Origin: Labrys monachus
Lineage (GTDB): Bacteria; Pseudomonadota; Alphaproteobacteria; Rhizobiales; Labraceae
Length of the DNA: 64,000 nucleotides
Direction of reading: 5' to 3'
Assembly (NCBI RefSeq): GCF_030814655.1
Contig: NZ_JAUSVK010000001.1
Location: 5,649,001 to 5,713,000, forward strand
Positions 6,289-64,000 of this stretch are shown here, piece by piece. The notes beneath the pieces were generated by a model, which worked only from the letters and a program-made list of their open reading frames with translations, had not been told where the DNA came from and searched no databases. The translations under genes and the position numbers were made by a program. Within the stretch, counting starts at the first letter, position 1. Each line of letters starts with the position of its first letter.

Positions 6289-6385
6289 TCGACTTGAGCA
6301 GATGAGGATTGCCTGCCGCGGGCGAGCGACGGCCATGGTCTGGCGAATTCGAGCGTAGCGGATATCCTGTCGGCTCCCCGAAGGG

Positions 6386-9877: not shown

Positions 9878-12800
9878 TCCTCGCTCTCCGCGCCGAGAGA
9901 CCATTCGCGCACCCGGGCGAGATGATCGTAATCGCCGTAGCGGCGGCCCTTGAACATCGGGTGCAGCAGCGAGGCGTAGGGGGTCTCCTCGTTCTCGAAG
10001 CGGTCGATCAGCGCCTTGACGCGGGCCAGCGTTTCCATCGCGACCTCGATCGGCTCCATGTCCTCGAAGGCGAGGGGGATCTCGCGGATGTCCTTGCGGC
10101 GGGCGCCGAGCTTCACGATGCTGGGCGCCGCGAGCGCGTCGGGCGCCGGGAAGCCCTGGAAGCCGGCTTCGACCAGCATCGCCATCTCCAGGGCGACCTG
10201 CGGGCTGAGGCCGCGCTGCACCTGCCGGGCGGTCGGCGCCTGGCCGGTCTTGAAATCGAGCAGCCGCACCACGCCGTCCGCCGCGACCTCGATGCGGTCG
10301 GCCCGGGCGGCGAGCGTGAAGGCGCGCCCGGCGATGGTCTCCCAGGCGATGGTGCCGCCGATCTCGCTCTCCACCCGGGCGAGGCGCGGCCGCCGCTCGG
10401 CCTCCCAGTCGGCGAGGAAGCCGGCGATGGCGGCAAAGCGCGGCCGCCAGAATGCCAGCACGTCGGGGAAATCGGCGAGGTCGGCGAAGAGGCTCTCGCC
10501 GATCGCCATCAATCGCGCCAGCGCGTCCGGCGGCACGCCGCCGGCGCAGATCCCGGCGAATTGCCGGAGCGCCTCGTGGATCAGCGTGCCTCGGTCGGCG
10601 GCGCCGGGCGGCATCGCGATGTCGTCGAGCGGCTCCAGGCGCAGGATGTGGCGGGCATGGATCGTATAGGGATCGCGCACGAGATGCTCGATCTGGGTCA
10701 CCGACAGGCGGGTCGGGCGCAGCGCCAGCGGCGGACGCGGCGTCGGCGCCGCCGGGGCGGGAGACGGCGCCGCGCCGGCGTCGAGCTGGCGGGCGAGCGC
10801 GCAGAGCCGGCCCCCCCTCACCTGCATCGCCGCATAGGCGGGCCCGAGAAAGGCACCGAGCCGCTGCAGCCAGCGTGACGGCACCGTCGGCGAACCGCCG
10901 CGCTTCAGGGCACGGGTGATGACTACGTCGGCGCAGCCGAGCGCCTGCTCGAAATCATGGGAGGCGAGGCCGATGCGCTTTTCCGGCGCGGACAGGCCGA
11001 TCGCCGCCCGCATCGGCCGGTTGAGCCAGGGATCGGCCTTGACGTCGGGCGGCCACACGCCCTCGTCGAGGCCGGCGAGCACCAGCCGGTCGACCGGCAG
11101 CAGCCGAGCCTCCAGCAGCCCGTATATGGCGATGCGCGGATGCCTCGGTTCGCCGCCGCGCACGGTGCGTCCGGCCAGCAGCGCCGCGAACAGGCCGGGG
11201 AACTCGGCGGCGGCCAGCGCCAGGGCATCGGGGGCGACGGTGCCGAGATCGGCGAAGAAGGCTTCGAGCGCCAGGCCCGCCTCCTGGGCGTAGAGGACGG
11301 CCTCCTCGTCCTCAGCCGGAGCAGCCGCGGCCTCCGCCGCGAGGCGATGGGCCGCGAAGAAGGCCGATGCCGGATAGGCTTCGCGCCTGCGCAGCAGCGC
11401 GGCGAAGGGCTCCAGCGCCCCTTGCAGCGCCTCGACCAGCGCTTCGGCGGCCGTCCAGTCCGCGTCGGAGAGGCCGCGCCGCGCCGCTGGGGCATGCGGC
11501 TCGCCGAGGCTCGCCCGGCCGCGGGCGAGCGCCTTGGCGACGCCGGCGAGCCCCGGCGCCGGCCGCGGGCCGCGCAGGGCGCCGATCTCCAGGGCCGCGG
11601 TGGCGCGCCGGATCGCCGCCCTCGGCCGGCCGAGCCGGGCGAAGGGATGTTTCAGCAGGGCCAGCAGCGGGATCGGCGCGAAATCGTTCAGCGCGGCATC
11701 GAGCACGAGGCGCGCGAACAGGCCGGGCGGCGCATCGGCCAGAGGCCGGCCGGCGCTGTCGTCGGCGAGGATGTCCCAGCGTCCGAGTTCGGTGACCACC
11801 CGCCGGGCGAGCAGGCGGTTGGGCGTGACGAGCGCCGCGGTCCGGCCGGGCACGGTCAGCGCTTCGCGCAAGGCGAGGGCCGCGACGAGGGCCTCCTCGC
11901 CCTCATGCGCCGCCTCGACCAGCGTGACGCCGGCGAAGGCCTCGGCCACCGCCCCGGGATCGCCGCCGCGCCGGCCCGCCCACAGATCGGTGGTCTCGGC
12001 CGGCCGCAGCGCCTGCGACACCAGAGCGGCGCGGCGCGCCAGCGCCGGCGGCGGCTCCTTCAGCAGGCCGACGCCGTCGCGGTCGACGCCGATCGCCGCC
12101 AGCAGGGCGGCGAGGCCGGCCTGCGGATGGCCCGGCGCGCCGGCTCCGGTGGCGATGGCGGTCCAGCCGGCGAGGTCGAGATCGAGATCGAGCCCGGGCA
12201 GCACGACGGCACCGCCCGGATGGGCCGCGACCGCCTTGATGAGGTCGCGCGTCGCCGGGATCGAGCCGGTCGAGCCGGCGACGATCACCGGTCCGGCCTG
12301 CGGATCGGCGGCGAGCCGCGCGGCCTCGGCCATCATGCGGGCATTGCGCAGCAGGACGGCGTCGCCTTTGCCGATCTCGGCCAGATGCGCCGGCCAATGG
12401 ACGGTGGCGATCTCCAGGAAGCGCAGGGTCAGGTCCCAATATTTGTCGTAGAGCCCGGCATGGGTGGCGCTCAGCGTCGCCAGGGCGGCGGGCTCGACCC
12501 GGTCGATCTGCATGCCGTCGAGGAATTGGCCGAGCTCGGCGGCGAGCCCGGCCGCGTCGCCGGGCGAGGACGGGATCAGCAGCGGCTCCTCCGCTCCCGG
12601 CAGCGGCAGCAGGGCCTGCTTCAGCGCGGCGCTCCATTGCAGGATCAGGCGCGTCAGCGCGATCTGCCGGTCGAGCCCCGCCACCGGCTCGCCGAAGTCC
12701 GGCGCCTCGGCATCGAAGGCGGCCTCGTCGTCATCGACCTCGCCGAGGGCGAGCAGGCGCGGCAGCAACACGGCGCCGGTGCCGAGGCGGTCGAGGAAGA

Positions 12801-49957: not shown

Positions 49958-50251
49958 TCACCTTCTCGCTTTCTTCATTTCGTCGATATAGTGGAGGTCG
50001 AGCCCGTAGAGATGCTGCTTGTCCTCGTGGTAATGGCGCAGCAGCGCCGCGATCGAGGCCGTGTTGAACAGCAGCACGAGGCCGCCCGCCACCATGAGCG
50101 CGATGGTGACGCCGGGCGAGCCGGTATCCGGCAGGACTTCCGAAAAGACGAAAAGCAACGTGAGCCACAGCACGATGATGGCGAGGTAGGACCAGGCGCG
50201 ATCGCGGCGATACATCACCTCGATCCGCGGATCCTCCGATCCCGGTGTCAT
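49958..50251 (-). CDS. Small membrane protein with two spans, first gene of the transport operon
   Basis: Protein of 97 residues: acidic start, span 1 (SYLAIIVLWLTLLFVFSEVL), span 2 (GVTIALMVAGGLVLLFNTA) and a charged end with HYHEDKQHLYGLDLHYIDEM. No family recognised. It heads a tight minus-strand operon whose genes are spaced by -4 to +10 bases: this gene, the 139-residue and 60-residue membrane proteins, the permease, the anchored 243-residue protein and the 93-residue protein. Confidence 0.75.
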   Translation of the reverse strand: MTPGSEDPRIEVMYRRDRAWSYLAIIVLWLTLLFVFSEVLPDTGSPGVTIALMVAGGLVLLFNTASIAALLRHYHEDKQHLYGLDLHYIDEMKKARR

Positions 50252-50548
50252 GAATGTTTCCTCTCTTGAATATTTGCTTCTCAGTCGGTAGGTCGAGTTA
50301 CCTCAGAGGCAATTTGTTTTTATGCCAGGAAAAGGTGCGCTCGCCTCTGCCTAAAAGTCAAGCACCGTATCCGTCAAAATGCCTGTTTTCGACCTTTGAT
50401 GCCGCTTTTTCGACCTGCGGCCCATCTGTTTAATGTGCGGAAATTTTCTTGCACTTCAGGAAGCATGCGGTAAAAGTCGAGGGGAATTCGCATCGTCGCG
50501 GGTTCGCTTCCCGAATGAGCGCCGCGTGGGTGGCGCGGAGTTGCCCGT
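50252..50548. promoter_or_regulatory. Divergent promoter region of the transport and mgdABCD operons
   Basis: The 297 bases between two divergently read operons must hold both promoters. The AT-rich stretch near 50305-50325 (aatttgtttttatgcc) is followed by atgccagga; atgccaggc also appears at 46862, upstream of mgsA. This may be a shared regulatory site, but the match is short. Confidence 0.4.
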
Positions 50549-51790
50549 ATGCCCTTGGCCCTGCTGAAATACGGCCTGAGTTCCAAGCACCGCGAAGACC
50601 CGCATTTCCGCTGGGCGCCGGAGCTCAAGAAATCCTACGACGTCGTGATCGTCGGCGCCGGCGGCCATGGCCTCGCCACCGCCTATTACCTCGCCGCCCA
50701 TCACGGCATCACCAATGTCTGCGTGCTCGAGAAGGGCTATCTGGCCGGCGGCAACACCGCGCGCAACACCACCATCGTGCGCGCCAACTATCTCACGCCG
50801 GAGGGCGTCGCCTTCTACAAGGAATCGGTCGAGCTTTTCCGCGGCCTGTCGCTCGAGCTCGACATCAACATCATGTATTCGGAGCGCGGCCATTTCACCC
50901 TCGCCCATACCGATGCGGCGATGCGCACCGCGCGCTGGCGCGCCGAGGTCAACAAGCATCTCGGCGTCGATTCGGAGCTGATCTATCCCGACGACATCGC
51001 CAGACTCTGCCCCACCATGAACATGTCGGACGAGGTGCGCTACCCGATCCTGGGCGCGCTCTACCATCCGCCGGGCGCCATCGCGCGCCACGACGCCGTC
51101 GCCTGGGGCTATGCCCGTCAGGCGATGCGCCGGGGCGTCGAGGTGCATCCGCAGACGGAAGTCACCGACGTCCTGATCGAGAACGGGCGCGCCGTCGGCG
51201 TCGAGACCAGCCGGGGCACCATCCATGCCGGCAAGGTGGTGCAGGCGGTCGCCGGCTCGTCGAGCCTGATGGCGCGCAAGGCCGGCTTCCGGCTGCCGAT
51301 CCGCACCATTCCCCTGCAGGCCTGCGTGTCCGAGCCGGTCAAGCCCATCCTCGACCAGATCGTGGTGTCGGGCTCGCTGCATGTCTACATCTCGCAATCG
51401 GCCCGCGGCGAGATGGTGATGGGCGGCGCGACCGACCCCTACGGCCTCTATTCGACCCGTTCGACCCTCGATTTCAAGGAGGGGCTGATGGGGCACATGC
51501 TGGAACTCTTCCCGTTCATGGCCGAACTGCGCGTGCTCCGGCAATGGGCGGGGATGGCCGACATGACGCCGGACTTCTCGCCCGTGATGGGCCTCACCCC
51601 GGTCGAGAACTATTACATCGACGCCGGCTGGGGCACCTGGGGCTTCAAGGCGACGCCGGTGTGCGGCAAGCGCATGGCCGAATGCGTCGCCACCGGCACC
51701 CAGCCCGGCCTCCTCAGGCCCTTCGCGCTCGACCGCTTCGACCGCTTCGACCTCGTCGGCGAAAAGGGCGCGGCCTCGGTGGGACATTGA
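50549..51790 (+). CDS. mgdA: N-methylglutamate dehydrogenase subunit A (SoxB-like FAD subunit)
   Basis: Protein of 413 residues homologous to the beta subunit of heterotetrameric sarcosine oxidase. The FAD Rossmann motif VIVGAGGHGLATAYYLA near residue 33, NTTIVRANYLTPEG (including the residue region of covalent FMN attachment in SoxB) and the C-terminal DAGWGTWGFKATPVCG are visible. It would oxidise N-methylglutamate. First gene of mgdABCD; a palindromic repeat sits between it and mgdB. Sarcosine oxidase is the alternative, but gmaS and mgsABC next door favour the N-methylglutamate pathway. Confidence 0.83.
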   Translation: MPLALLKYGLSSKHREDPHFRWAPELKKSYDVVIVGAGGHGLATAYYLAAHHGITNVCVLEKGYLAGGNTARNTTIVRANYLTPEGVAFYKESVELFRGLSLELDINIMYSERGHFTLAHTDAAMRTARWRAEVNKHLGVDSELIYPDDIARLCPTMNMSDEVRYPILGALYHPPGAIARHDAVAWGYARQAMRRGVEVHPQTEVTDVLIENGRAVGVETSRGTIHAGKVVQAVAGSSSLMARKAGFRLPIRTIPLQACVSEPVKPILDQIVVSGSLHVYISQSARGEMVMGGATDPYGLYSTRSTLDFKEGLMGHMLELFPFMAELRVLRQWAGMADMTPDFSPVMGLTPVENYYIDAGWGTWGFKATPVCGKRMAECVATGTQPGLLRPFALDRFDRFDLVGEKGAASVGH

Positions 51791-51812
51791 CGATGAGCCA
51801 GAGTTCTCCCCT

Positions 51813-51889
51813 GGGATCGCAGGCGTCCTCGCCTGCCCTTTTCGGAAACGTCTGCGGATCGAGAGCAGGCAGGGATGCCTGCGGTCCCA
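51813..51889. repeat. Palindromic repeat (copy F) between mgdA and mgdB
   Basis: gggatcgcaggcgtcctcgc at the left and, inverted, gcagggatgcctgcggtccc at the right, with ttcggaaacg in the loop. Sister of copy E between mgsB and mgsC; it widens an otherwise tight operon to a 118-base gap. Confidence 0.85.
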
Positions 51890-51908
51890 GGACCTTCGAG
51901 TGCATGCC

Positions 51909-52202
51909 ATGAAGATCATGAACTGTCCGCTCAACGGGCCGCGCAACATCTCCGAATTCGTGTGGGGCGGCGACATCAAGCCGATGCCCGATCCGGCTAC
52001 CTGCAGCGACCGGCAATGGACCGACCATCTGTTCATCGAGGACAACATCGCCGGCATCGTGCATGAATGGTGGCTGCACGCTCCCACCAATTTCTGGTTC
52101 GTCGCCCGGCGCAACACCATCACCGACGAGATCCTGGAAACCATGACGGTGGACCGCTTCTTCCAACAGACCGCTGCCGGACCGGCGGGAGAGCCCGCAT
52201 GA
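51909..52202 (+). CDS. mgdB: N-methylglutamate dehydrogenase subunit B (SoxD-like)
   Basis: Protein of 97 residues homologous to the delta subunit of heterotetrameric sarcosine oxidase. It starts MKIMNCPLNGPRNISEF, where the sarcosine oxidase subunit has two cysteines (C-P-x-C-G-P-R-N); here the second is replaced by Asn. The later part WWLHAPTNFWFVARRNT keeps the His but has no Cys where the zinc ligand is expected. So the zinc site is probably absent or altered. It overlaps mgdC by four bases (ATGA). The GTG nine bases upstream is an alternative start. Confidence 0.82.
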   Translation: MKIMNCPLNGPRNISEFVWGGDIKPMPDPATCSDRQWTDHLFIEDNIAGIVHEWWLHAPTNFWFVARRNTITDEILETMTVDRFFQQTAAGPAGEPA

Positions 52203-55105
52203 AGCGCACCGCCCGCCTCGCCGGCCCCGATTGGGGCCTGCTGATCGACCCGTCCCGCCCGGTCGGCTTCACCTTCGACGGCCAGCGCCAGACGGGCTTT
52301 GCCGGCGACGTCATCGCCAGCGCGCTGATGGCCGGGGGTCGCTCCCTGCTGTCGCGCTCGTTCAAATACCACCGCCCGCGCGGTGCCCTCACCATGGCCG
52401 GACACGACGTCAACGCCATGGTGCAGGTCGGCCCGGAGCCCAATGTGCGCGGCGACCGCCATCCGATCGAAGAGGGCATGGCGGTCACCTCGATCAACCG
52501 CCTGGGATCGCTCGACGCCGACCGCTACGCGGTGCTGGAGAATTTCTCGCGCTTCCTGCCGGTCGGCTTCTACTACAAGACCTTCTTCCGCCCGAACGGC
52601 TCGTGGAAGCTGTTCGAAAAGCCGATCCGGGAACTGGCCGGCCTCGGCCGGCTCGATCCGAAGGCCCATCACGGCTATTACGACAAGGCCTATCTGTTCT
52701 GCGACGTGCTGGTGGTCGGCGCCGGCCCGGCCGGGCTCGAGGCGGCGATCGCCGCCGCCGAATCGGGCGCCGACACGCTCCTGCTCGACGAATGGCCGGA
52801 GCCCGGGGGCTCCCTCCTCTATGGCCGCCTCGACGGCACCCGCGCCGCCGCCAACGAGCGCCGCCGCGCGCTGGTCGCCAAGGCGCAGAGCCTGCCGACC
52901 CTGCGCCTGATGGCGGACACCACCGCGACCGGGCTGTTCGCCGACAACTGGACCTCGGCCATCGCCGGCAACCGCTTCTACAAGATCCGCTCCCGGCAGA
53001 CCGTGCTCGCGACCGGCGCCTTCGACCAGCCGCTGGTGTTCGGCAACAACGACCGGCCGGGCATCATGTTCGCCGACGCGGCGCAGCGGCTGATCCGCCT
53101 CTACGGCATCCGGCCCGGCCAGCGCGCCGTGATCGTCACCGCCAACCGCTTCGGCTACGACGCCGCGCTCGACCTCGCCGATGCCGGCGTGGAAATCGCC
53201 GCGGTCGTCGACCTCGGCCCGGCACGCCAAGGCCCCGCCGCCGATGCGGTGCGGGCGCGCGCCATTCCCGTGCGCACCGGCTCGACCCTGGTCGAGGCGC
53301 GCGGCAAGGCCCATGTCGAGGCGGTGGCGGTCGCCGCCGTCACCGGGCGGGGCGAGACGGCGCCGAACCCGGAATGGATCGCCTGCGACCTCGTCGCCAT
53401 GAGCGTCGGCTATACGCCCGCCCTCAACCTCGCCAGCCATGCCGGCGCCAGGGCCGTCTACGACGAGACCATCGCCATGCATCGCGCCCGGGACCTGCCG
53501 CCGGGGGTGGCGATCGCCGGCGCCGCGGCCGGCCTGTGGACGGACGCCCTCGCCGCCGAAGACGCCGCCCGCCAGGGCGCGGGCGCCGCGGCGCGGGCGC
53601 TCGGCAGGCCCGATACGGCCGCCGTGGCGCCCGCCGATCCCGGCGCGGCCGACATCACCCATCCCTGGCCGATCTTCACCGGCGGCAAGGCCAAGGATTT
53701 CGTCGATTTCGACGAGGACCTGCAGGCCAAGGACATCGTCAACACCGTCAAGGACGGCTATGACGACATCCAGCTCGTCAAGCGCTATTCCACCGCCGGG
53801 CTGGGGCCGAGCCAGGGCCGCCACGCCAATCTCAACACCATCCGGCTGGTCGCCGAAGCGACGGGCAAGACGCCGGCGGCGGTCGGCACCACGACCTTCC
53901 GCCCGCCTCTGGTGCCGGAGAAGTTCGCCCATCTCGCCGGCCGCTCCTTCGAGCCGGTGCGCCACACCGCGATGCATCAGCGCCACCTGGAACTGGGGGC
54001 GCGCATGATGGCGGCGGGGCTGTGGATGCGCCCCGCTTATTACGGCGCCAAGGCGGAGGCCGCCGCCGCCATCACGGCCGAGGTCAAGGCCGTGCGCGAA
54101 AATGTCGGCATGATCGACGTGTCGACCCTCGGCGGCATCGAGATCCGCGGCCCCGACGCCGCCGAGTTCGTCGACAGGATCTATACCTGGGCCTATGCCA
54201 AGCAGCCGGTCGGCCGGGCACGCTATGCGCTCGCCACCGACCAGAGCGGCGTCGTCTTCGACGACGGCGTCGCCTGCCGGTTCCACGAGCGCCATTTCTA
54301 CGTGACGGCCACCACCGGCGCGGTCGACCAGATGTATCGCCAGATGGGCTGGTGGAACACGCAATGGCGGCTCGACGTCGACGTCGCCAACGTCACCGCC
54401 GCCTATGCCGGCGTCAACATCGCCGGTCCCAAGGCCCGCGCCGTGCTGGCGACGCTGCCGACCGACATCGACCTGTCGGCGGAAGCCTTCCCCTATATGG
54501 CGGTGCGCGCGGGCCTGCTCGGCGGCATCCCTGTGCGCATCCTGCGCGTCGGCTTCGTCGGCGAGCTCGGCTACGAGATCCATTGCCCGTCCGGCCAGGG
54601 CGAGGCGCTGTGGGACATGCTGCACGAAGCCGGCAAGCCCTTCGGCATGAAGCCCTTCGGCGTCGAGGCCCAGCGCGTGCTGCGGCTCGAAAAGGGCCAC
54701 ATCATCGTCGGGCAGGACACCGACGGGCTGACCAATCCGGCCGAGGCGGGGATGGAATGGGCGCTCGCCCGCAAGAAGCCGTTCTATGTCGGCAAGCGGG
54801 CCGTCGACATGCAGATCGCCAAGGGCGTGACGCGGCGGCTGGTCGGCTTCGCCCTGGCCGACCCGGCGGCGCCCGCGCCCAAGGAATGCCATCTCGTCAT
54901 CCGCGACGGGCAGATCGCCGGGCGGGTGACGTCGGCCGTGCTCTCGCCCTCGCTCGGCAAGGTCGTCGGCCTCGCTTACCTGCCGCCCGACCTCGCGGAG
55001 GCCGGATCCGGCTTCTCGATCCGCATCGAAGGCGGGCGCATGATCGAGGCGACGGTGGTGCCGACGCCCTTCTACGATCCCGAGAACAAGCGGCAGGACC
55101 TGTGA
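52199..55105 (+). CDS. mgdC: N-methylglutamate dehydrogenase subunit C (SoxA-like)
   Basis: Large protein of 968 residues homologous to the alpha subunit of sarcosine oxidase. N-terminal ferredoxin-like domain (RPVGFTFDGQRQTGFAGDVI), NAD-binding flavoprotein domain with VLVVGAGPAGLEAAIAAAES near residue 175, a middle region ending in QLVKRYSTAGLGPSQGR, then a C-terminal folate-binding aminomethyltransferase-like domain (GMIDVSTLGGIEIRGPDAAEF, GYEIHCPSGQGEALWDML). The C-terminal domain accepts the one-carbon unit as formaldehyde or methylene-tetrahydrofolate. ATG 52199 overlaps the mgdB stop; the stop overlaps mgdD by one base. Confidence 0.88.
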   Translation: MKRTARLAGPDWGLLIDPSRPVGFTFDGQRQTGFAGDVIASALMAGGRSLLSRSFKYHRPRGALTMAGHDVNAMVQVGPEPNVRGDRHPIEEGMAVTSINRLGSLDADRYAVLENFSRFLPVGFYYKTFFRPNGSWKLFEKPIRELAGLGRLDPKAHHGYYDKAYLFCDVLVVGAGPAGLEAAIAAAESGADTLLLDEWPEPGGSLLYGRLDGTRAAANERRRALVAKAQSLPTLRLMADTTATGLFADNWTSAIAGNRFYKIRSRQTVLATGAFDQPLVFGNNDRPGIMFADAAQRLIRLYGIRPGQRAVIVTANRFGYDAALDLADAGVEIAAVVDLGPARQGPAADAVRARAIPVRTGSTLVEARGKAHVEAVAVAAVTGRGETAPNPEWIACDLVAMSVGYTPALNLASHAGARAVYDETIAMHRARDLPPGVAIAGAAAGLWTDALAAEDAARQGAGAAARALGRPDTAAVAPADPGAADITHPWPIFTGGKAKDFVDFDEDLQAKDIVNTVKDGYDDIQLVKRYSTAGLGPSQGRHANLNTIRLVAEATGKTPAAVGTTTFRPPLVPEKFAHLAGRSFEPVRHTAMHQRHLELGARMMAAGLWMRPAYYGAKAEAAAAITAEVKAVRENVGMIDVSTLGGIEIRGPDAAEFVDRIYTWAYAKQPVGRARYALATDQSGVVFDDGVACRFHERHFYVTATTGAVDQMYRQMGWWNTQWRLDVDVANVTAAYAGVNIAGPKARAVLATLPTDIDLSAEAFPYMAVRAGLLGGIPVRILRVGFVGELGYEIHCPSGQGEALWDMLHEAGKPFGMKPFGVEAQRVLRLEKGHIIVGQDTDGLTNPAEAGMEWALARKKPFYVGKRAVDMQIAKGVTRRLVGFALADPAAPAPKECHLVIRDGQIAGRVTSAVLSPSLGKVVGLAYLPPDLAEAGSGFSIRIEGGRMIEATVVPTPFYDPENKRQDL

Positions 55106-55800
55106 TGACCGCTCCCTATGTCTTCCTCCGCCGTTCCCCGCTCCAGCACGCGCTGGCCGGGCAGGCCACCGGCTGGCGGCCTCTCGCCGACGCGGCGATC
55201 GCCGAGTTCGACGGGCCGCTGCCGGCGCTCGGCATCGCCGATCTGTCGCCGCTGCCGCGCCTCGGCTTCAAGGGGCGCGGCACCATCCCCGCCATGCGCA
55301 AGCGCGGCGTCGAGGTCGAGGCGGAGCCCAACCGGGTGTTCCGCCAGCCGGATGGCGGCCTCTGCCTGGTGCTGGCGCCGGGCGAGGTCGTGCTCCTGAG
55401 CCCGCTCGGCGGCGGCGACGGCCGCTTCGGCCGGATGGAAGCCGAATGGCGGATCGAGGACGAGGAGCGGACCTATCCGCTGCCGCGCCGCGACAGCCAT
55501 GCCTGGTTCGTGGTCTCCGGCGAAGCGGCGCCGGCGATGTTCGCCAAGATCTGCGGTGTCGACCTCCGCAGGGACAAGTTCCCCGACCTTTCCATCGCGC
55601 AGACATCGGTCGCCCGGCTCACCGCCATCGTCGCCCGCGCCGACATCGGGGATGCGCTGGCCTTCCACCTGCTTGCCGACAGCGCGGCCGCCGGATATTT
55701 CTTGATGTGCCTGCGCGATGCGGCCGAAGAGTTCGGCGGGCGGATGACGGGGCTTTCCACATTGGAGGAGCTTCTCGCCGGTCCTGCTTCACCGCCGTGA
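55105..55800 (+). CDS. mgdD: N-methylglutamate dehydrogenase subunit D (SoxG-like)
   Basis: Protein of 231 residues homologous to the gamma subunit of sarcosine oxidase. It starts FLRRSPLQHALAGQ, with RLGFKGRGTI and VLLSPLGGG in the first half and HAWFVVSGEAAPAMFAKICG near residue 135, and ends in the tetrahydrofolate-domain-like LRDAAEEFGG. It starts one base inside the mgdC stop, so all four subunits are coupled except for the repeat after mgdA. Completes the dehydrogenase that splits N-methylglutamate into glutamate and a one-carbon unit. Confidence 0.83.
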   Translation: MTAPYVFLRRSPLQHALAGQATGWRPLADAAIAEFDGPLPALGIADLSPLPRLGFKGRGTIPAMRKRGVEVEAEPNRVFRQPDGGLCLVLAPGEVVLLSPLGGGDGRFGRMEAEWRIEDEERTYPLPRRDSHAWFVVSGEAAPAMFAKICGVDLRRDKFPDLSIAQTSVARLTAIVARADIGDALAFHLLADSAAAGYFLMCLRDAAEEFGGRMTGLSTLEELLAGPASPP

Positions 55801-55847
55801 GGCCGTTCCTCCGCTTCCTGCGGGGACGTTGAAAAGGGGTATGGGCA

Positions 55848-56684
55848 ATGACGAAACGGGTGGTCGTGCCAGGCCCCAGGGTTGAACGCGCCGCAACCGA
55901 ACGCGGCGGAGCCGAGCGCAGCCCGCCATCGCCCTATCGCGGAGACCAGGCGGCGATCGCCCATACGACCGGCATCCCCTATGCCGACCCGGTGGATCCG
56001 GAAGACGGCGAAGGCCCCTTCTCGGATGCCTTTCCCACCCGCAACTTCCCCTCGGGTGCCGCCCTGGCCGGACAGGACCCGCATGCCCTCGGCGGCGCCC
56101 GCGACAACACGCTCGAAGTGGCGATCGGCCGCGAGGTTCGCGCCTTCCGCAACAAGCTCGGCATCACGGTCTCCGATCTCGCCGCCGCCACCGGCCTGTC
56201 CCTCGGCATGCTCTCGAAGATCGAGAACGGCGTCACCTCGCCCTCGCTCACCACGCTCCAGACGCTGTCGCGCGCGCTCGGCGTGCCGGTCACGGCCTTT
56301 TTCCGCCGCTTCGAGGAGCGGCGCGACGCGGTGTTCGTGAGGGCCGGCGAAGGGCTTCTGATCGAACGGCGCGGCACGCGCGCCGGGCACCAGTACCGCC
56401 TGCTCGGCCATACCAGCGGCCATACCGGGCGCGTGGTGGTCGAGCCCTATGTCATCACGCTGACGGAGGGGTCGGACGTCTTCCCGCTGTTCCAGCATTC
56501 GGGCCTGGAGTTCATCTACATGCTCGAAGGCGAGGTGGTCTACCGGCACGCCGACAAGCTCTACACCCTGCAGCCCGGCGACAGCCTGTTCTTCGACGCC
56601 GACGCACCACACGGCCCGGACGAGATGCGCAAGCTCCCCATCCGCTTCCTCTCCATCATCTCCTATGCGCGGGACGACGAATAG
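55848..56684 (+). CDS. XRE family transcriptional regulator with cupin domain
   Basis: Protein of 278 residues. Residues 1-90 are a variable, Pro- and Gly-rich extension; about 95-150 is the helix-turn-helix (VRAFRNKLGITVSDLAAATG, LSLGMLSKIENGVTSPSLTT); about 200-270 is a small cupin barrel (SGLEFIYMLEGEVVYRH, LQPGDSLFFDADAPHGP). XRE-cupin proteins usually sense a small metabolite and regulate neighbouring catabolic genes. It follows mgdD by 48 bases on the same strand and is the likely regulator of the mgd, mgs and transport genes. The long N-terminal part is unusual and could mean a later start. Confidence 0.88.
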   Translation: MTKRVVVPGPRVERAATERGGAERSPPSPYRGDQAAIAHTTGIPYADPVDPEDGEGPFSDAFPTRNFPSGAALAGQDPHALGGARDNTLEVAIGREVRAFRNKLGITVSDLAAATGLSLGMLSKIENGVTSPSLTTLQTLSRALGVPVTAFFRRFEERRDAVFVRAGEGLLIERRGTRAGHQYRLLGHTSGHTGRVVVEPYVITLTEGSDVFPLFQHSGLEFIYMLEGEVVYRHADKLYTLQPGDSLFFDADAPHGPDEMRKLPIRFLSIISYARDDE

Positions 56685-56824
56685 GCGTCTTGCGATCCGA
56701 TCCCCCCAAGGGGTACAGGCGCGCCTAGGATCGAGGGGGGACGTTCAACCGGCATTCCCGCGGGAACGCATTCTGCTCCGGCGTTCCCCCGGCCTCGCCG
56801 CGTCCGGGCAAAGGCCTCCTGCGC

Positions 56825-56849
56825 AGAAGGGCGGCAACGCCGCCCTTCT
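56825..56849. terminator. Bidirectional hairpin between converging genes
   Basis: AGAAGGGCGGC-AAC-GCCGCCCTTCT, a perfect 11-pair stem between the cupin regulator (plus) and the lipoprotein gene (minus). There is no T tail, so termination is only inferred. Confidence 0.6.
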
Positions 56850-56888
56850 CCATCCCGTCCATATCGCCGGCTCGCGGATGCAGGCAGC

Positions 56889-57275
56889 CTATTGCTGCCG
56901 ACCGGGAAGCAGCTTGGCTTCCGTCTTCTCGCCATCCTGATCCAGCCAGAACACCCGATCGCCGACGACCGAGACGCCGGAACAGGTCCAGTCGAGATCG
57001 GTCTTCGTCGGATCCTCCGATTCATAGCCCGTGCACAGCTTGTTGCCGTCGATCCGCCAGGAACCGGTATAGGGCTCGGTGTCCTTGCCGGCGATGGAGC
57101 CGCTCGGATCGTAATATTCCATATAGGGTTTGCCGTCGTCGACGCCGGTCACGGTATTGCCGACGATGCGGGCCTTGATCTCGTCCCCGCCCATGCCGGC
57201 CTTGGAAGCCGTCGCGCATCCGGCGACGCCCAGCAACATCAGCGCAAGCGGAACAATATGCTTCATCATCCTCAT
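56889..57275 (-). CDS. Small lipoprotein of the duplicated module (B2)
   Basis: Protein of about 128 residues with a lipoprotein signal peptide (hydrophobic core IVPLALMLLGVAGC; lipid-modified Cys in the lipobox GVAGC). The mature part has EIKARIVGNTVTGVDDGKPYM, TGSWRIDGNKLCTGYES and DRVFWLDQDGE, closely matched by the protein at 58753-59133. It looks like a small beta-rich protein of the periplasm or outer membrane. The start among several Met codons is uncertain; 57275 is chosen. Last gene of the duplicated cluster. Confidence 0.75.
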   Translation of the reverse strand: MRMMKHIVPLALMLLGVAGCATASKAGMGGDEIKARIVGNTVTGVDDGKPYMEYYDPSGSIAGKDTEPYTGSWRIDGNKLCTGYESEDPTKTDLDWTCSGVSVVGDRVFWLDQDGEKTEAKLLPGRQQ

Positions 57276-57294
57276 TTTAACTATCCCCATTCTC

Positions 57295-58200
57295 TCATTG
57301 TGACCATTTTGTAATGTATGGGTACGCGATCAACAGCAGATCGGCCACCAGAACCGCAAGTATTACAAGTTCGATGACAAGGCTAGCCGTTCCCTGCTTT
57401 TTTGCGATTTCAAATTGCTTTTTATCGGCTTCGAATTGCTGCTCGGAGACCATGAAATGCTTGGCTTCGATCATTCTTGTATTGATCAACTCGTAATGCT
57501 CGATAGCAAAATCGATCGGCTCGGCAAGCATTTCGAGGCGGTCCTCGAGCCCGGCCTGCAGCACAAGCTCAGCAAACAGCCGCTTGGACGAACTGTGCAG
57601 GCGAGCATCGAGCTGTTCCAGAGCGGCCTCGACACGCAGGGCGACGCCGGCCATCTTGGCGACGACCTCCGTCGTCTTGTTGACCTCCGCCTTGCGCTTG
57701 TCGTAATCGCCGGACGGCACGGTATGGGCGAGCGACGCATGGACGTCCATCGATGTCCAGACGGACGCCATCTTCGCTTCGAGCGCGGCCGTGTCCCGCT
57801 CGACGACGGTGAAGCGGATGAGCGCGTCGAGCGTATCCTCGAGCAGTTCCTCGGCGGTATGGACGATGGCGAGCCGGTCCGTCCACACCACGCGCGCCGT
57901 CCTCAGGCCGGCACGGACGATTCTCGCCCCGCTGTCGGCCGCCGGCATGGCGGCGAGCCAGGCTTCCTCGACCTGCGGTGCCGCTCCCGGCGGCATCCAC
58001 AGGATGGCGATCGAGCGGTCGATCTCTCCCGGAGCCCTGGAGAGGGCGGGCGGCGCCTCGGCGTCGATCGACGTCCATTGCGCAAAGAGGCGGCGAGGCG
58101 AGGAGATCTCCACGGCGCCGACGACGGCCGCCGGAGTGAAACCGACGTGCCAGGCCTTCACTTCGACCGCCGGCGCCTCGACCAGATGAATTCTCTGCAT
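57295..58200 (-). CDS. Coiled-coil protein with C-terminal membrane anchor, duplicated module (A2)
   Basis: Protein of 301 residues. N-terminal soluble part (AVEVKAWHVGF, SIAILWMPPGAA, ARVVWTDRLAIVHTAEEL), helical middle (YDKRKAEVNKTTEVVAKMAG, LFAELVLQAGLEDRLEMLAE, IDFAIEHYELINTRMIEAK), charged coiled-coil stretch (EADKKQFEIAKKQ), and one membrane span at the extreme C-terminus (ELVILAVLVADLLLIAYPY). The C-terminal arrangement recalls RMD1/DUF155-type proteins, but this is a resemblance only. GGGAGGA precedes ATG 58200. Paralogue of the gene at 59168-60061; the lipoprotein gene follows 19 bases later. Confidence 0.75.
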   Translation of the reverse strand: MQRIHLVEAPAVEVKAWHVGFTPAAVVGAVEISSPRRLFAQWTSIDAEAPPALSRAPGEIDRSIAILWMPPGAAPQVEEAWLAAMPAADSGARIVRAGLRTARVVWTDRLAIVHTAEELLEDTLDALIRFTVVERDTAALEAKMASVWTSMDVHASLAHTVPSGDYDKRKAEVNKTTEVVAKMAGVALRVEAALEQLDARLHSSSKRLFAELVLQAGLEDRLEMLAEPIDFAIEHYELINTRMIEAKHFMVSEQQFEADKKQFEIAKKQGTASLVIELVILAVLVADLLLIAYPYITKWSQ

Positions 58201-58752
58201 GTCGTGTCCTCCCTGTTGCTGGATGCACGGGTCGCCCTCGCGCGGAAGCGGGCGCAACGATTCCGACGGCGCCCTCTCGTCCGCGTGGGCGTTGTTCCGC
58301 GATGTGATCGGTTTCCGCCCCGCGCAAGGCTTTCCGCCCAAGCGCCGGCACGAAAGAAGGGCGATGCAGCCGGAGCGGGGACGCGCGCCGCGTCTCTGCC
58401 CGCCGAGGCCCTGCCTGCCATCTCCGGGACCGCGAGCCCGCCAGGGGCGAGACCCGCGGGAAGGCGGCCGGCCCCTTGCCGAGCAATTGCGATTCATCGA
58501 ACCGCAATGTCCCCTTCTCTATCCATTCAACGCATTTTCAGATCGGGAAGCCCGTCGGCTCGCCTGGAAAATGCCCTCGGGCAGGAAGCGTTCGGATATA
58601 AACGCCATTTGCCCCGTCTCTTTGCTTTGGCGCATCCTTGCGGTGCCTGCCGCTTTCGACAGGTCGCGGAGCGCTCCCCGTGGCCCGGATGCGGGAGGGC
58701 GGCATGGCTGCCCTCCCGGTGTTTGCCAAGCATAGCGGCGTGACCGCCGCTG
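58201..58752. other. Gap between the two duplicated modules
   Basis: About 550 bases without a supported gene. It contains a GGGAGGG/CCCTCCC hairpin near 58688-58715 that may end the first module, and presumably a promoter for the second module. Confidence 0.4.
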
Positions 58753-59133
58753 CTATTTCCCGCCGGCGACGAGCTTGCCCTCGGACAGTTCCCCGTCGTC
58801 GTTCCAGATCACCCGATCGCCGATGACACCGACATCGGAGCAGTTCCAATCGTTGATCTGGCCGGACTCGTCGTCCGATTCATAGCCCATGCACAGCTTG
58901 TCGCCCTGGATACGCCAGGCGCCCGTATAGGTCTCCGTGCTGGATTTGCCCGATATCGAACCGTTGGGATTGAAATATTCCTGGTAGGGATTGCCGTCCT
59001 CGACGCCGAGGACGGTATTTCCGATGATACGCGCCTTGATCTCGGCTGCGGTCAGCTGCAGGTCGGAAGCCGATGCACAGTTCATCCCCGTCAGCAACAG
59101 CACTGACAACGGAAGAATATACTTCACCGTCAT
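58753..59133 (-). CDS. Small secreted protein of the duplicated module (B1)
   Basis: Protein of about 126 residues, paralogue of the lipoprotein at 56889-57275: IKARIIGNTVLGVEDGNPYQE, TGAWRIQGDKLCMGYES, DRVIWNDDGE. It has a signal peptide (VKYILPLSVLLLTGMNCASA), but the sequence before Cys (TGMNC) is a poor lipobox, so this copy may be cleaved after Ala-Ser-Ala and released. ATG 59133 is chosen; upstream in-frame Met codons exist and no strong ribosome-binding site decides. It follows A1 by 34 bases. Confidence 0.72.
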   Translation of the reverse strand: MTVKYILPLSVLLLTGMNCASASDLQLTAAEIKARIIGNTVLGVEDGNPYQEYFNPNGSISGKSSTETYTGAWRIQGDKLCMGYESDDESGQINDWNCSDVGVIGDRVIWNDDGELSEGKLVAGGK

Positions 59134-59167
59134 CCTATTCACCATTCCGGCCATTTCAATCCACCAG

Positions 59168-60061
59168 TCACTTCGCGAGGTAGGGATAAGCGATAAACAG
59201 GAGATCGGCGACAAGCACCGCAAGGATGACGAGTTCGACGACGAGACTGGCGGTCGCCTGCTTCTTCTCGACTTCGAACTGCTTCTTTCCGACTTCGAAC
59301 TGCTGTTCCTCGATCATGAACTGCTTGGCTTCGATCATTCTCGAATTGATCAATTCATAATGCTCGATGGCAAAGTCGATCGGCTCGGCCAGCATTTCGA
59401 GGCGATCTTCGAGCCCGGCCTGCAGTGCCAGCTCGGCGAACAGACGCTTCGACGAGCTCTGGAGCGCAGGATCGAGCTGTTGGAGGGCGATCTCCAGCCG
59501 CAGCGCCGAACTCGCCATCTTGGTGACGGTTTCCGTCGTCCTGTTGACCTCCGCCTTGCGCCGGTCGTGATCGCTGGGCAGGACAGTGTGGGTCAGCGGC
59601 GTGTCGGCGTCGATCGACGCCCAGATCGCGGGCATCTTCGCTTCGAGCGCCGCCGTATCGCGCTCGACCACGGTGAAGCGGATGAGGGCGTCGAGCGCAT
59701 CCTCCAGCTGCTCCTGGGCGGTGTAGACGATGGCGAGGCGATCGGTCCACACGATACGGGCCGTGCGCAAGCCGGCGCGAACGACCCGCTCGGTGCTTTC
59801 GCCCGCCGGGATGGCGGCGACCCAGCCGGCTTCGACGTCGGCCGGTGCGCCCGTCGGCATCCACAGGACGGCGATCGGACGATCCGCCTCGCCGGCGGCG
59901 ACGGCGGCCGGCGGCGCGGCGGTGTCGACCGGGATCCACTGCGCGAAAAGCTCGCGAGGAGCGCCGATGCGCACCCCCTCGCCCCGCGCCGTCGTGCCGA
60001 AGCTGACCAGCCATGCCTTTGCCTCGACAGCCGGCGCCTCCATCAGATGGGCCTTCTGCAT
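59168..60061 (-). CDS. Coiled-coil protein with C-terminal membrane anchor, duplicated module (A1)
   Basis: Protein of 297 residues, paralogue of A2 along its whole length. The C-terminal 110 residues are most similar (SSSKRLFAELALQAGLEDRL, IEHYELINSRMIEAKQFM), ending in the same membrane span (VILAVLVADLLFIAYPY). The N-terminal third is more diverged but keeps AVLWMPTGAPADVEAGW and RTARIVWTDRLAIVYTA. Starts 58 bases after the FAD-methyltransferase gene on the same strand. I do not recognise the family with certainty. Confidence 0.75.
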   Translation of the reverse strand: MQKAHLMEAPAVEAKAWLVSFGTTARGEGVRIGAPRELFAQWIPVDTAAPPAAVAAGEADRPIAVLWMPTGAPADVEAGWVAAIPAGESTERVVRAGLRTARIVWTDRLAIVYTAQEQLEDALDALIRFTVVERDTAALEAKMPAIWASIDADTPLTHTVLPSDHDRRKAEVNRTTETVTKMASSALRLEIALQQLDPALQSSSKRLFAELALQAGLEDRLEMLAEPIDFAIEHYELINSRMIEAKQFMIEEQQFEVGKKQFEVEKKQATASLVVELVILAVLVADLLFIAYPYLAK

Positions 60062-60118
60062 GTCATTTTCCTTTTCATACCTGGATAGGAAGATCGATCG
60101 CTTCCGACGACGCAGCCT

Positions 60119-62287
60119 CTACAGGCCCGAAACGGGAACCCGCTCGTCCGTGTAGAGCCGCTCTTCGACGATGCGATCCGCTTCCGCAGCCGCAGCGATG
60201 TCGCTCGCGGCACTGCCGCTTGCGCCGTAGAAGCAGTAAAGGAGGCTCTCCGCATCCTCATACCACTCGCCGGGGGCCACGCCCGCCGCCACCGTCTTCT
60301 TCCAGGCCACGTCGAGGAGGCGCGGATCGGACAGTGCGAAGTGGAATCCGATGGCGAGGAGCTGATCCGACCAGTCCCAGCGGGAAGTGAGCGTCTTGAC
60401 GCCGGTCAGCAGCTTGCGGCGCTCGACCAGTTCGATCGGCAGGTCGCTGCTGATGGAGCCGAGCACGAAACCATATCGGGTCACGCGCCGGATCTCCGCC
60501 AGCATCTTCGGCAGCTCCGAGCGTTCGAAACGGCAGAGGCCGGTGTCGAGCACCACGTCGAAATAGCCGTCCGGGACGTCGAGGCCGAGCGGGGCCGAGC
60601 AGAGATTGAACGCGCGCAGTTCCGGCGGAGTCGAACGCCAGGCGTGCTGGCTCGGTTCGAGGCCCTGCGCGTCGAAGCCGAGCGAGCGCAGCGCCGCCAC
60701 CACCTCTCCCCCGCCGGAGCCGACGTGGAGAATGCGCGCCCCGGGCTGCACGTTCCAGACGGCCCGCAGCATGTCGGCGAGATAGGTCGCGTCGAACACG
60801 CCGTCCTGTTCCTCGGCGCCCGGCGGATCGAACCACTCGCTGACGGCGAGGCGGCCGTCGATCTCCGCCTCCCTCTGGCGCCTGGCGACGACCTCGGCCA
60901 GCAGGATGTCCGTCGCCGCGTCGGCCGAATCGAGCACGCCGTTCAGCGTGGCGTCGAACATGTAGTCGCCGACCGCCACCAGATTGGGGAGTTGCTCCGC
61001 ATTGGGACGGTGGTTGAGATAGGGGCTGCGGACCGGGAAACCGCCGGGAATGGCGTTCACCGATGCCATCCAGCGATGGATGCGGGTGTCGACATGCAGC
61101 TTGCGGCCGAATTCCAGGCAGGGCGGCAGGGCGTCGAGGCATAGTTTCTCGATCGCCTCGTTCGACATGTTCGCCAGGCCGAGCGCCGCGTTGCCGGCGA
61201 TCAGGAAGCCGAGTGCGCCCCACTGGCCGAGACTGTTGCGAGCCCCTTCGTCATAGACGCAGCAGCCGTCGAACGCATCGATCATCCACCATGCGCCCGG
61301 CAGCACGTCGCGCCAGAACGGCCGTTCGAACAGCAGCGTGGCGCGCAGATAATGCCCGGGGCGGTCAAAATAATTGATGTGGCGGGCCATGGCCTGCTGC
61401 AGATGCGGAGAGCGCCAGTCGATGATGGACAGCGCGGTCAGCGGCAAAGCGAGGACGACATAGTCGGCCACCACCGTCTCGGGCTTGCCGTTGACATGCA
61501 TGCCGAGCTGAAGGCTGCCGTCGAACAGGGGCCGGACGGATTTGAGCGAGGAGTTGAACTGGACGTCGGCGTCGAGTTCGTCGGCGAGGCGGTCGACGAT
61601 CTGCTCATTGCCCCCCACCACCGAAAAGACGTCCATATAGCCCTCCGAATCCATGAGGGCGTTCTTGAGGAAGGTGAGGCCGTTGGTGAGGTGCGGCGGC
61701 GCCGCGACATCGCTGTGCGCCATGATTCGCACATAGCGGCGGGCCATCTCGTCGGGAATCTCGGTCGCGATCACCTCTTCCGCCGAAACCCGCGACCATG
61801 CATGCCGGTTGTCGACGTTCCTGGCGCTGGAATAGAAGTCGGGACGGCTGAGCAGCTCCGTGCAGCGCTTCTTGAACGCCTCGACGGATTCGAAGGTCTC
61901 GTCTCCGAAATTCTCTTTCAGGTCCTTGTAGCTTTCCAGGACCTTGTCGTCGAGGACGCAGGCGCCCCCCGCGATATGCTTGATCTCGAGGCCCAGCTCC
62001 TTTTCGATCAGGTCGCGCAGCGGATCGGGGCCGAGAGCGGAATAATCATAGATTTCGGCGACGCCGATCTCATAAGGGCCGACGCCGGCAAATTCACCGG
62101 TGATGATCTTGCCGCCCAGCCGCTCGCTCGCTTCATAGATCGTAATCTTGCAGGCATTGCCGACTTTGGCGGCCAGGTGCCACGCCGTAAATAAACCTCC
62201 GGGGCCTCCCCCAATGATCGCGACATTATACGGCGCAGACGTCGGCTTGACGGGTTTAAACTGGGATATATCGCTCATATTGTTCAT
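60119..62287 (-). CDS. Fused FAD-dependent amine oxidase-like and SAM methyltransferase protein
   Basis: Protein of about 722 residues with two enzyme domains. Residues 20-480: flavin amine-oxidase-like, with VAIIGGGPGGLFTAWHLA (dinucleotide motif), IYEASERLGGKI, EQIVDRLADELDADV and a C-terminal FAD motif in LVAVGDYMFDATLNGVLDSA. Residues 515-720: class I methyltransferase, with ARILHVGSGGGEVVAALRS (SAM motif I), FDAQGLEPS and YFDVVLDTGLC. No signal peptide. Fusions of this kind are unusual; substrate unknown. ATG 62287 is preferred over 62293 because GAGGG lies eight bases upstream. First gene of the cluster with the duplicated A/B modules. Confidence 0.8.
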   Translation of the reverse strand: MNNMSDISQFKPVKPTSAPYNVAIIGGGPGGLFTAWHLAAKVGNACKITIYEASERLGGKIITGEFAGVGPYEIGVAEIYDYSALGPDPLRDLIEKELGLEIKHIAGGACVLDDKVLESYKDLKENFGDETFESVEAFKKRCTELLSRPDFYSSARNVDNRHAWSRVSAEEVIATEIPDEMARRYVRIMAHSDVAAPPHLTNGLTFLKNALMDSEGYMDVFSVVGGNEQIVDRLADELDADVQFNSSLKSVRPLFDGSLQLGMHVNGKPETVVADYVVLALPLTALSIIDWRSPHLQQAMARHINYFDRPGHYLRATLLFERPFWRDVLPGAWWMIDAFDGCCVYDEGARNSLGQWGALGFLIAGNAALGLANMSNEAIEKLCLDALPPCLEFGRKLHVDTRIHRWMASVNAIPGGFPVRSPYLNHRPNAEQLPNLVAVGDYMFDATLNGVLDSADAATDILLAEVVARRQREAEIDGRLAVSEWFDPPGAEEQDGVFDATYLADMLRAVWNVQPGARILHVGSGGGEVVAALRSLGFDAQGLEPSQHAWRSTPPELRAFNLCSAPLGLDVPDGYFDVVLDTGLCRFERSELPKMLAEIRRVTRYGFVLGSISSDLPIELVERRKLLTGVKTLTSRWDWSDQLLAIGFHFALSDPRLLDVAWKKTVAAGVAPGEWYEDAESLLYCFYGASGSAASDIAAAAEADRIVEERLYTDERVPVSGL

Positions 62288-62300
62288 CGCCATGTCCCTC

Positions 62301-62364
62301 GTGACGTCCGTGAGTACTGGACTATTCCACGCACATCGTGATCACACTGTGATCTGACCGTGAT
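62301..62364 (-). promoter_or_regulatory. Phased GTGAT direct repeats upstream of the FAD-methyltransferase gene
   Basis: GTGAT begins at 62338, 62349 and 62360, exactly 11 bases apart, with further GTGA at 62301 and 62310. Regular one-turn spacing suggests binding of a regulator along one face of the DNA, just upstream of the gene start. Confidence 0.5.
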
Positions 62365-63100
62365 TCATCCAATTTTGCAGTGCGTTAATGCACAAAAGGA
62401 TTCCGCAACCCACTCAGCGAAGGCGCCCAAGGTCTTTTTTGAGTTAGAATACCTCCTCCTACCCGGGAGGGAGCGCAGTTTCAACAATATTTTTTCTACA
62501 TTAAATCAAATTACCGCATTTCCCAAAGTGAGCTCCGCTCAATAACCTAGGGTAATATTTTTAGATAAAGCTTGTTGATGATCCGAGTATAACTTGTAAT
62601 TTAGTGATATATCAGCCTATTTTCAATGAACTTCGGCGACGGCGCCACGATTTCAGGCGTCGAAACTTCAAATGTAGGCCTGATGCTGCTCGAAATGAGG
62701 CATCTGACGGGCAGAGGAATAAAGGCAGCCCTATCGTATGTATTATGATTTATTATGACACAGGCCGTACATTTTGCACATTTACGCCGCATCTGAGGCG
62801 GAAAAAACACCTTCGTGGGCCGGCCACATCCTATTTGAGGTATCATAGTAGGTCATATTTCGACGCGGCTGAGCCTCCGGGCCCTTTCCCTTGCGTCAAG
62901 CGCGGACGAAAACATCGGAAATTGAGGCATTTTCTTGTTCTTGTGTGTCCCTTCGGCCACAATTTCGGACCCGGCTGTCGGGGAGATCGCCGGCGAGGCC
63001 GCCTTTCCCACGGCCGCGCAGCGACGCCATGCCGCCAGGGCAGCGGGCCGAACGCCTGGCTGAGTCGGCCGGCGGCGCGGCGCCGGCGCGTCCGCGACCG
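62365..63100. other. AT-rich intergenic region
   Basis: About 740 bases without a convincing gene. The stretch 62370-62860 is clearly more AT-rich than the rest of the window; open frames here lack family features and ribosome-binding sites. It may be the scar of an acquired segment and probably contains the promoter of the minus-strand cluster. Confidence 0.45.
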
Positions 63101-63961
63101 TCAGCCGACGGTGCTCCGGTACAGATGCCACGTCGCATGGCCAAGCACCGGCATCACGACGATGAGGCCGAGGAGCAGCGGGAGGGAGCCGACCACCAGC
63201 GCACAGGCAACGATGAAGCCCCAGGCCAGCATCGGACCCGGATTGGTCCTGGCTACCTCCACCGATGTGCGGACCGCCGTGGCCACCCGGATCCGGCGGT
63301 CGAGCAGCATCGGAAACGACACCGCACCGATGGCCAGCACGAGAAGGGCGAACAGGAAGCCGACGCCGATGCCCGTCACCATCATCGCCCAACCGGCTCC
63401 GGTGGTGAAGACGTCGGAGACGAACGCCGCGATCGAGACCGGGACGGCCGGCCCGAGCGTCGCGCGGTAGAGCAGCGCCGCCGCGCCGATCCAGGCGGCG
63501 AAGATCAGCGCCAGCAGGAGGCTCAGGCCCAGAATGGCGCCGAAGGACGGTGAGCGGCAGACATCGAGCGTATGCGCCCAGGTCACCTCCAGCCCGCGCT
63601 CCCGCCGCCGGCTCATCTCGTAGAGGCCGATCGCGGCCACCGGCCCGAGCAGGGCGAAGCCCGAGACGAGCGGAAAGATCAGCGGCAGCATGCCGTTGCC
63701 GAGCGCGAGCTGGCCCAGGACAAGGCCGGCGAGCGGATAGATCAGGCCGATGAAGACGACATCGGTGCGATAGGCGCCGAAATCGGCGAAGCCCTTGGCG
63801 AGCGCGCGCCCGAGATCGCCGTAGTCGATACGACGCACGACCGGGGAGGCCGTGTCGAAGTCCGCCGCCGGGCGGTGGAGGGTCTGCCCGATGCCGCCGA
63901 CGCCATGCGCCGTGGTCCGGACCGCGTCGATGCCCCATTCAACAGGATTTCTGATCGTCAT
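63101..63961 (-). CDS. DUF2189 domain-containing membrane protein
   Basis: Inner-membrane protein of 286 residues. The N-terminal part has the DUF2189 pattern RIDYGDLGRALAKGFADFGA, then about six spans (VFIGLIYPLAGLVLGQLA, LIFPLVSGFALLGPVAAIGL, ILGLSLLLALIFAAWIGAAA and others). It contains PMLLDRRIRVATAVRTSVEV and ends GHATWHLYRSTV, both typical of the family. Function unknown. ATG 63961 follows AGGGA. The 39 bases to the window edge contain no further gene start that I can support. Confidence 0.9.
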   Translation of the reverse strand: MTIRNPVEWGIDAVRTTAHGVGGIGQTLHRPAADFDTASPVVRRIDYGDLGRALAKGFADFGAYRTDVVFIGLIYPLAGLVLGQLALGNGMLPLIFPLVSGFALLGPVAAIGLYEMSRRRERGLEVTWAHTLDVCRSPSFGAILGLSLLLALIFAAWIGAAALLYRATLGPAVPVSIAAFVSDVFTTGAGWAMMVTGIGVGFLFALLVLAIGAVSFPMLLDRRIRVATAVRTSVEVARTNPGPMLAWGFIVACALVVGSLPLLLGLIVVMPVLGHATWHLYRSTVG

Positions 63962-64000
63962 GTCCCTACTCCCGAAATGGCTTCGAGAGGCCGCGGCCGC

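Follow-up and report, generated by a model that had tools for sequence, protein, structure and literature searches.

A flavoprotein-methyltransferase fusion gene and the gene of a singly anchored membrane protein recur together in Labrys monachus and four other genomes

What kind of system is encoded by a cluster in which an enzyme with two fused catalytic domains is followed by two copies of a membrane-protein and exported-protein gene pair, and which of these genes belong together? The cluster lies in a stretch of 64,000 nucleotides of the Labrys monachus genome (contig NZ_JAUSVK010000001.1, positions 5,649,001 to 5,713,000; hereafter the window). Its first gene encodes a fusion of a flavin adenine dinucleotide (FAD) domain and an S-adenosylmethionine (SAM) methyltransferase; the following pairs consist of A, a protein with a C-terminal membrane anchor, and B, a small protein with an export-signal-like start. 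A first-pass annotation had described a genuine cluster without assignment, and this description stands: coordinates and anatomy hold, and Pfam and NCBIfam give no match above cut-off for A1, A2, B1 or B2. The genes and domains are, in window coordinates:

60119..62293, minus strand: fusion gene, 724 amino acids (from ORF (open reading frame) call, Pfam and alignments)
residues ~20-465 of the fusion: N-terminal FAD domain, amine-oxidase superfamily
residues ~471-510 of the fusion: linker, poorly conserved
residues ~511-690 of the fusion: C-terminal class I SAM methyltransferase domain
59168..60061, minus strand: A1, 297 amino acids, 57 bp past the fusion gene, with homologues in the same place in four other genomes; predicted alpha/beta N-domain, helical stretch and single C-terminal transmembrane helix
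58753..59145, minus strand: B1, 130 amino acids, hydrophobic N-terminus, no lipobox; alternative in-frame ATG at 59154
57295..58200, minus strand: A2, 301 amino acids, tandem paralogue of A1 (71%)
56889..57269, minus strand: B2, 126 amino acids, paralogue of B1; probably a lipoprotein, with the lipobox VAGC

The start of the fusion gene is 62293; position 62287, given previously, is the second in-frame ATG.

Judged by gene order across genomes, the fusion and A are the core of the set. In all five genomes with a strong A match the fusion is followed by A on the same strand, with gaps of 57, 26, 2, 18 and 15 bp, and since this order is repeated in five of five genomes the adjacency is not a matter of chance. 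A scan of genome contigs with the fusion led to Xanthobacter oligotrophicus 29k (65% identity), where A follows the fusion after 26 bp and B follows A after 15 bp; the same kind of scan with A found nothing although X. oligotrophicus has A, and is therefore insensitive. The A profile was run on larger draws of genomes at E<=0.001. It matched four of 385 genomes in the draw from the class (the window's own, G098, G297 and G328), two of 397 in the draw from the order (own and G748) and two of 398 in the draw from the phylum (own and a weak match with a stop); within the family of G098, only G098 itself was matched among 18 genomes. The G328 match (E 3.8e-4) covers 47 positions with one stop and the G966 match (E 9.8e-4) also contains one stop; both were dropped as chance. 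For G098, G297 and G748 the search used A alone, and the fusion stands in front of A in three out of three cases, which is an independent result. An all-against-all comparison of ORFs of at least 100 amino acids around the five loci, spanning 12 kb in the window and about 18 kb at each of the other four, found the fusion and A to be the only genes common to all. The large draws score the best few candidates per genome (five to six for A, two for the fusion), and single misses are possible. The first-pass annotation had made its cluster depend on the fusion and the A-B pairs occurring together in other genomes; the neighbourhoods bear this out for A (5/5) and do not support it for B (2/5).

The fusion profile matched five of 385 genomes in a class draw of equal size at E<=1e-12, adding G366 and G056 to those found with A. 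The G056 gene encodes an ordinary-looking amine oxidase and stands ahead of a putative agmatinase gene. The G366 relative (locus L043, G366:C1:5991000-6009000, at 5863-10078) is flanked by rpoC and an MsbA-like ABC exporter gene, and rpsL follows farther along; rpoC and rpsL were identified by eye. In four congeners the A profile has no match (own genome only, 1/5) and the fusion has only short FAD-motif matches.

That a flavoprotein and a methyltransferase are joined in one ORF is confirmed by Pfam, with Amino_oxidase (PF01593) scoring 103.8 bits against a cut-off of 19.8 over residues 32-461 and Methyltransf_11 (PF08241) 26.0 bits against 21.2 over residues 522-607; Methyltransf_25 stays just under its cut-off (26.5 versus 27). 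The FAD and SAM motifs are intact: GxGxxG, ExxxRxGG and G-S-G-x-G are kept in four of four aligned fusions, as is the acidic residue after beta 2 that accompanies SAM motif I (G-S-G-x-G). Identity to the window fusion is 57-70% in the FAD domain, 45-61% in the methyltransferase domain and 18-32% in the linker (4/4 comparisons). The FAD domain resembles flavin amine oxidases (PF01593) in its motifs and Pfam score and aligns with monoamine oxidase (MAO) A over profile positions 15-338; its closest relatives in the PDB are putrescine, monoamine and L-amino-acid oxidases. It differs from them in carrying Arg in place of the N5 lysine and an extra C-terminal methyltransferase, and in forming a clade of its own, which unites the six fusion-family FAD domains (support 95/98). 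Four outgroup rows of this tree (L011, L012, L014 and L015) come from long or badly placed ORFs, and its rooting is open. The second domain likewise has motif I and passes the Pfam cut-off expected of class I SAM methyltransferases, differing in its place behind a flavoprotein; its best PDB match reaches only E 1.5e-6.

Arg317 of the window fusion aligns with the N5 lysine of MAO A and MAO B (K305 and K296), and Arg occupies this position, the ninth residue before FW, in six of six fusion-family FAD domains. Counted back from FW, Lys is found at the same spot in the G056 and Azospirillum enzymes, as in MAO A and B; a gap in the MAFFT alignment puts the G056 and Azospirillum Lys one column off the Arg site. 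Across 12 outgroup rows, Lys stands at the site or one column beside it in five (G056, Azospirillum, Caballeronia, Nostoc and L016), Arg in three (L009, L010 and L013), and four are unreadable. In MAO-type enzymes the N5 lysine matters when the reduced flavin reacts with oxygen. Without this lysine the FAD domain is less likely to be a classic amine oxidase and would more likely act as a dehydrogenase or desaturase.

A single C-terminal hydrophobic stretch is present in six of six A proteins (Kyte-Doolittle windows), strongly so in A1 and A2, in keeping with the membrane anchor first proposed for them; the proposal that the two paralogues diverge most at the N-terminus also agrees with their identities, which are 56% at residues 1-45, 66% at 46-113, 69% at 114-196, 84% at 197-260 and 81% at 261-297. 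The suggestion that A is of the RMD1/DUF155 kind finds no support in its sequence: none of five A proteins matches Pfam DUF155 (PF02582) up to E=10, where most matches with E above 0.1 are removed by the filters of HMMER, and the predicted structure points weakly elsewhere, to the N-domain of CorA and ZntB. The best AlphaFold model of A has a mean predicted local distance difference test score (pLDDT) of 53.8, with blocks of 57-84 within residues 11-130 and long helices mostly below 50. In a Foldseek search with this model the best 50 of 309 rows at E<=10 were all CorA, ZntB or CmaX, with a best E of 5.8e-3 (none <=0.001) and TM 0.15-0.25. VIA-align gave Z 5.6-5.0, a range the tool calls common, in the top eight rows, all of them CorA, ZntB or CmaX and mostly matched in the N-domain; the first unrelated row followed at 4.4. 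In hhalign, A scored 15.4 with Escherichia coli ZntB and 15.5 with CorA, no better than with 13 unrelated E. coli controls, three of which exceeded both (RarD 15.7, UvrD 17.2, DbpA 29.6; the YnaI control sequence was cut at its end). As the profile scores are like those of the controls, the likeness to CorA comes from the structural model, and A could possibly contain a CorA-like N-domain, which is not the same as membership of the CorA family. The low-confidence model resembles the N-domain of CorA, ZntB and CmaX, whereas A has one transmembrane helix instead of two, lacks the GMN motif in six of six proteins and has no profile similarity to E. coli CorA or ZntB beyond the controls. A sequence search of the PDB with A retrieved only chance nucleoporin coils (E 0.47).

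The duplication of A together with B is likewise real. As first described, two tandem pairs are present, with A1 and A2 71% and B1 and B2 56-57% identical; the whole unit is repeated at the DNA level (74%, direct repeats spaced ~1860), with a gap of 552 bp between B1 and A2. Among the five A-bearing loci only that of the window has the duplication. The ratios of nonsynonymous to synonymous substitution (dN/dS, NG86) are 0.22 for A1/A2, 0.45 for B1/B2 and 0.25 for the fusions of the window and Xanthobacter, at synonymous divergences (dS) of 0.75-0.85 for the A and B pairs and 0.75-1.1 over the measured pairs. Every measured pair has a dN/dS under 0.5, so selection maintains the copies, and for A1/A2 and B1/B2 it is purifying. 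It is possible that the two A-B pairs correspond to two related specificities.

B does not travel with A in the same way. Its two copies differ as the first-pass annotation had it, one a clear lipoprotein and the other not: B2 has the lipobox VAGC and B1 has none, a call read from the sequence itself and not from a predictor. In NCBIfam, TUL4 lipoprotein matched B2 far below the cut-off, and a PDB search with B gave nothing better than E 0.18. The B profile matches the window's genome and X. oligotrophicus, two of the five A-bearing genomes, and has no match in G098, G297 (78% complete) or G748, nor in the four congeners (own genome only, 1/5). A third copy stands alone ~470 kb from the cluster (L003:1390-1794; G000:C1:6178704-6179078), with an enolase-superfamily-like gene on one side and the gene of a TetR-type regulator on the other (both by eye). 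This distribution speaks against B as a constant part of a module, as had been proposed.

A gene with a signal-like N-terminus is nonetheless found beside fusion-A in all five loci (judged by eye, with hydrophobic segments computed). In G098 and G297 the gene directly upstream of the fusion encodes a protein of ~283 amino acids with a signal-like start (L023:5172-6026, L024:4935-5786), with a BBP2 porin gene beside it on the opposite strand; neither Pfam nor NCBIfam matches the protein above cut-off, and by eye, without Pfam support, it looks like a two-repeat cupin. In G748 the gene after A encodes a 112-amino-acid protein with a hydrophobic N-terminus (L028:9921-10259), which has no family match above cut-off and is unlike B and unlike the upstream protein of G098 and G297; two 'LGY..WD'-like repeats were seen in it by eye. 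Upstream of the fusion in G748, a gene for a patatin-like phospholipase runs on the opposite strand (L028:4773-5825, minus); it is not common to the other loci.

The gene tree is patchy, and so is the distribution. G748 is of the window's order, and its FAD domain groups with those of G098 and G297 (95/95), while that of the window groups with Xanthobacter (91/87); together with the absence from four congeners, this suggests horizontal transfer of the set. Records of mobile DNA contain little that is related: phages gave no match to the fusion, PHROGs nothing significant, and viral contigs, scanned with two peptide patterns for each protein, neither the fusion nor A. Plasmids gave no A, only 25-28% relatives of the fusion's FAD domain, and no DNA match to the G366 locus.

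What, then, might the set do? In the reading we favour, at a rough probability of 0.4, the fusion is a bifunctional tailoring enzyme docked at the membrane; a single hydrophobic or exported molecule would be both oxidised and methylated by it, and its periplasmic partners would vary. The FAD domain of the cytosolic fusion would dehydrogenate a substrate and the SAM domain would methylate the same one. A, a cytosolic domain with helices anchored by one C-terminal helix, would be the dedicated inner-membrane partner and would keep the enzyme at the membrane, or gate it there, close to the expected hydrophobic or outward-bound substrate. Substrate or product would be membrane-linked or exported, and the exported-looking proteins (in two lineages B, in the rest proteins of different families) would act on the outer side of the membrane, swapped between lineages. 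The reading draws on the constant fusion-A order, the two conserved domains with their motifs, the Arg-bearing clade, the hydrophobic C-termini of A and the signal-like starts of the neighbours; the MsbA-like exporter gene that follows the A-less fusion relative of G366 is also in its favour. A parallel in logic, not in family, is offered by furan fatty acid synthesis, where the SAM methylase UfaM and the desaturase UfaD, with a predicted NAD/FAD-binding domain, are reported to act sequentially on phospholipid acyl chains (PMC7380195). That pathway uses separate genes together with the DUF1365 protein UfaO, whereas here both activities are in one fused protein; a scan of part of the neighbouring proteins, in the window and in L017, L023, L024, L028 and L043, gave no DUF1365.

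Several observations weigh against this reading. The exported-looking neighbours belong to three families without mutual sequence similarity, and they may therefore be incidental. An Arg stands at approximately the N5 site in three CrtI-like flavoproteins of congeners as well (L009, L010 and L013), so the reaction type is not told by the Arg alone. The fusion relative of G366, ~37-45% identical, has no A, neither by tblastn in 18 kb nor among the matches listed for the whole genome, so that not every relative requires A; the point is tempered by the division of that gene over two reading frames around residue 366. Finally, the structure model of the fusion (pLDDT 34) is unusable, and the orientation of its domains is not derivable from it. 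A more specific version is doubtful: a new class of membrane-assembled FAD/SAM enzyme, in which A, a poreless, single-helix CorA relative, would be the dedicated dock or sensor at the membrane, the fused dehydrogenase-methyltransferase would act on a membrane lipid or exported small molecule, and exchangeable exported partners (two A-B sets here) would direct the product.

Among the other explanations, one concerns B and is compatible both with the membrane-docked enzyme and with the soluble-metabolite locus discussed below: the fusion and A cooperate, and B is an unrelated small exported passenger that was duplicated along with A, the apparent A-B module being a by-product of tandem duplication. 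Its absence from three of five A-bearing genomes, its lone copy elsewhere and its greater divergence than A all suit a passenger; its position directly after A, in X. oligotrophicus as in the two copies of the window, and the B1/B2 dN/dS of 0.45 do not. We regard it as a possible account at clearly less than even odds. We think it rather unlikely that the locus makes a soluble specialised metabolite derived from an amine or amino acid, with the fusion oxidising and methylating it, A a regulator or transporter accessory, and the chemistry away from the membrane. The oxidases that are the closest solved relatives of the FAD domain fit such a locus, as do the unfused relatives (~25-30% identity) ahead of agmatinase genes in G056 (by eye) and Azospirillum; the replacement of the N5 lysine by Arg in six of six, the lack of any other biosynthetic gene common to the five loci and the presence of A after all five intact fusions argue against it. 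An anti-phage or inter-bacterial conflict system, patchy and mobile with duplicated variable pairs, is very improbable, since the patchy distribution, the duplicated A-B pair with divergent N-termini and a weak PADLOC match between A1 and PDC-M40C, short of significance (E 0.064; one of five A proteins), are set against no significant PADLOC match for A and none for B1 or B2, PADLOC matches of the fusion that come from its FAD and SAM parts and are confined to mads_2 (E 0.0011) and a model for a desaturase (E 8.8e-6), and nothing at useful identity in phage or plasmid records, nor in viral contigs as far as the few peptide patterns reach.

The flanks and spacers of the cluster contain further features:

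58680..58740, minus strand: G+C-rich hairpin 3' of B1, without U-run; z -1.7, stability equalled in 13 of 200 shuffles; no terminator call
56820..56880, minus strand: hairpin 3' of B2 with an 11-bp G+C-rich stem; z -3.1, stability equalled in 0 of 200 shuffles; no terminator call
62294..62850, minus strand: AT-rich region upstream of the fusion, 557 bp, 45% GC compared with 67% in window 1-56000

The hairpin after B2 is a possible transcript end, and the hairpin after B1 together with the 552-bp gap raises the prospect that A2-B2 may be transcribed separately from fusion-A1-B1. The AT-rich region contains four promoter-like matches (shuffle mean 1.4), including two consensus matches at 62626-62586; unlike the rest of the window in composition, it may mark the edge of acquired DNA. 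Rfam has no match in window 50000-64000, and the window has no tRNA gene. Convergent with the cluster, at 52067-56684 on the plus strand, lie a sarcosine oxidase alpha-type gene, the gene next to it and a regulator with helix-turn-helix and cupin parts (PuuR-like, below cut-off), probably a separate amine-catabolism unit.

The set combines, in a new way, enzyme folds that are known and a membrane protein that is an orphan; the titles and abstract openings listed in literature searches contain no account of a fusion-A system, a weak negative since subscription literature lies mostly outside that scope. A conserved pair of an enzyme and a membrane protein, the latter named by none of the family libraries used, points to an as yet undescribed chemical step at the envelope of bacteria. 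With redox and methyl-transfer sites in one protein, the product of this step may be both oxidised and methylated, and, if the likeness to CorA holds, A may show a CorA-like domain in a role outside channels.

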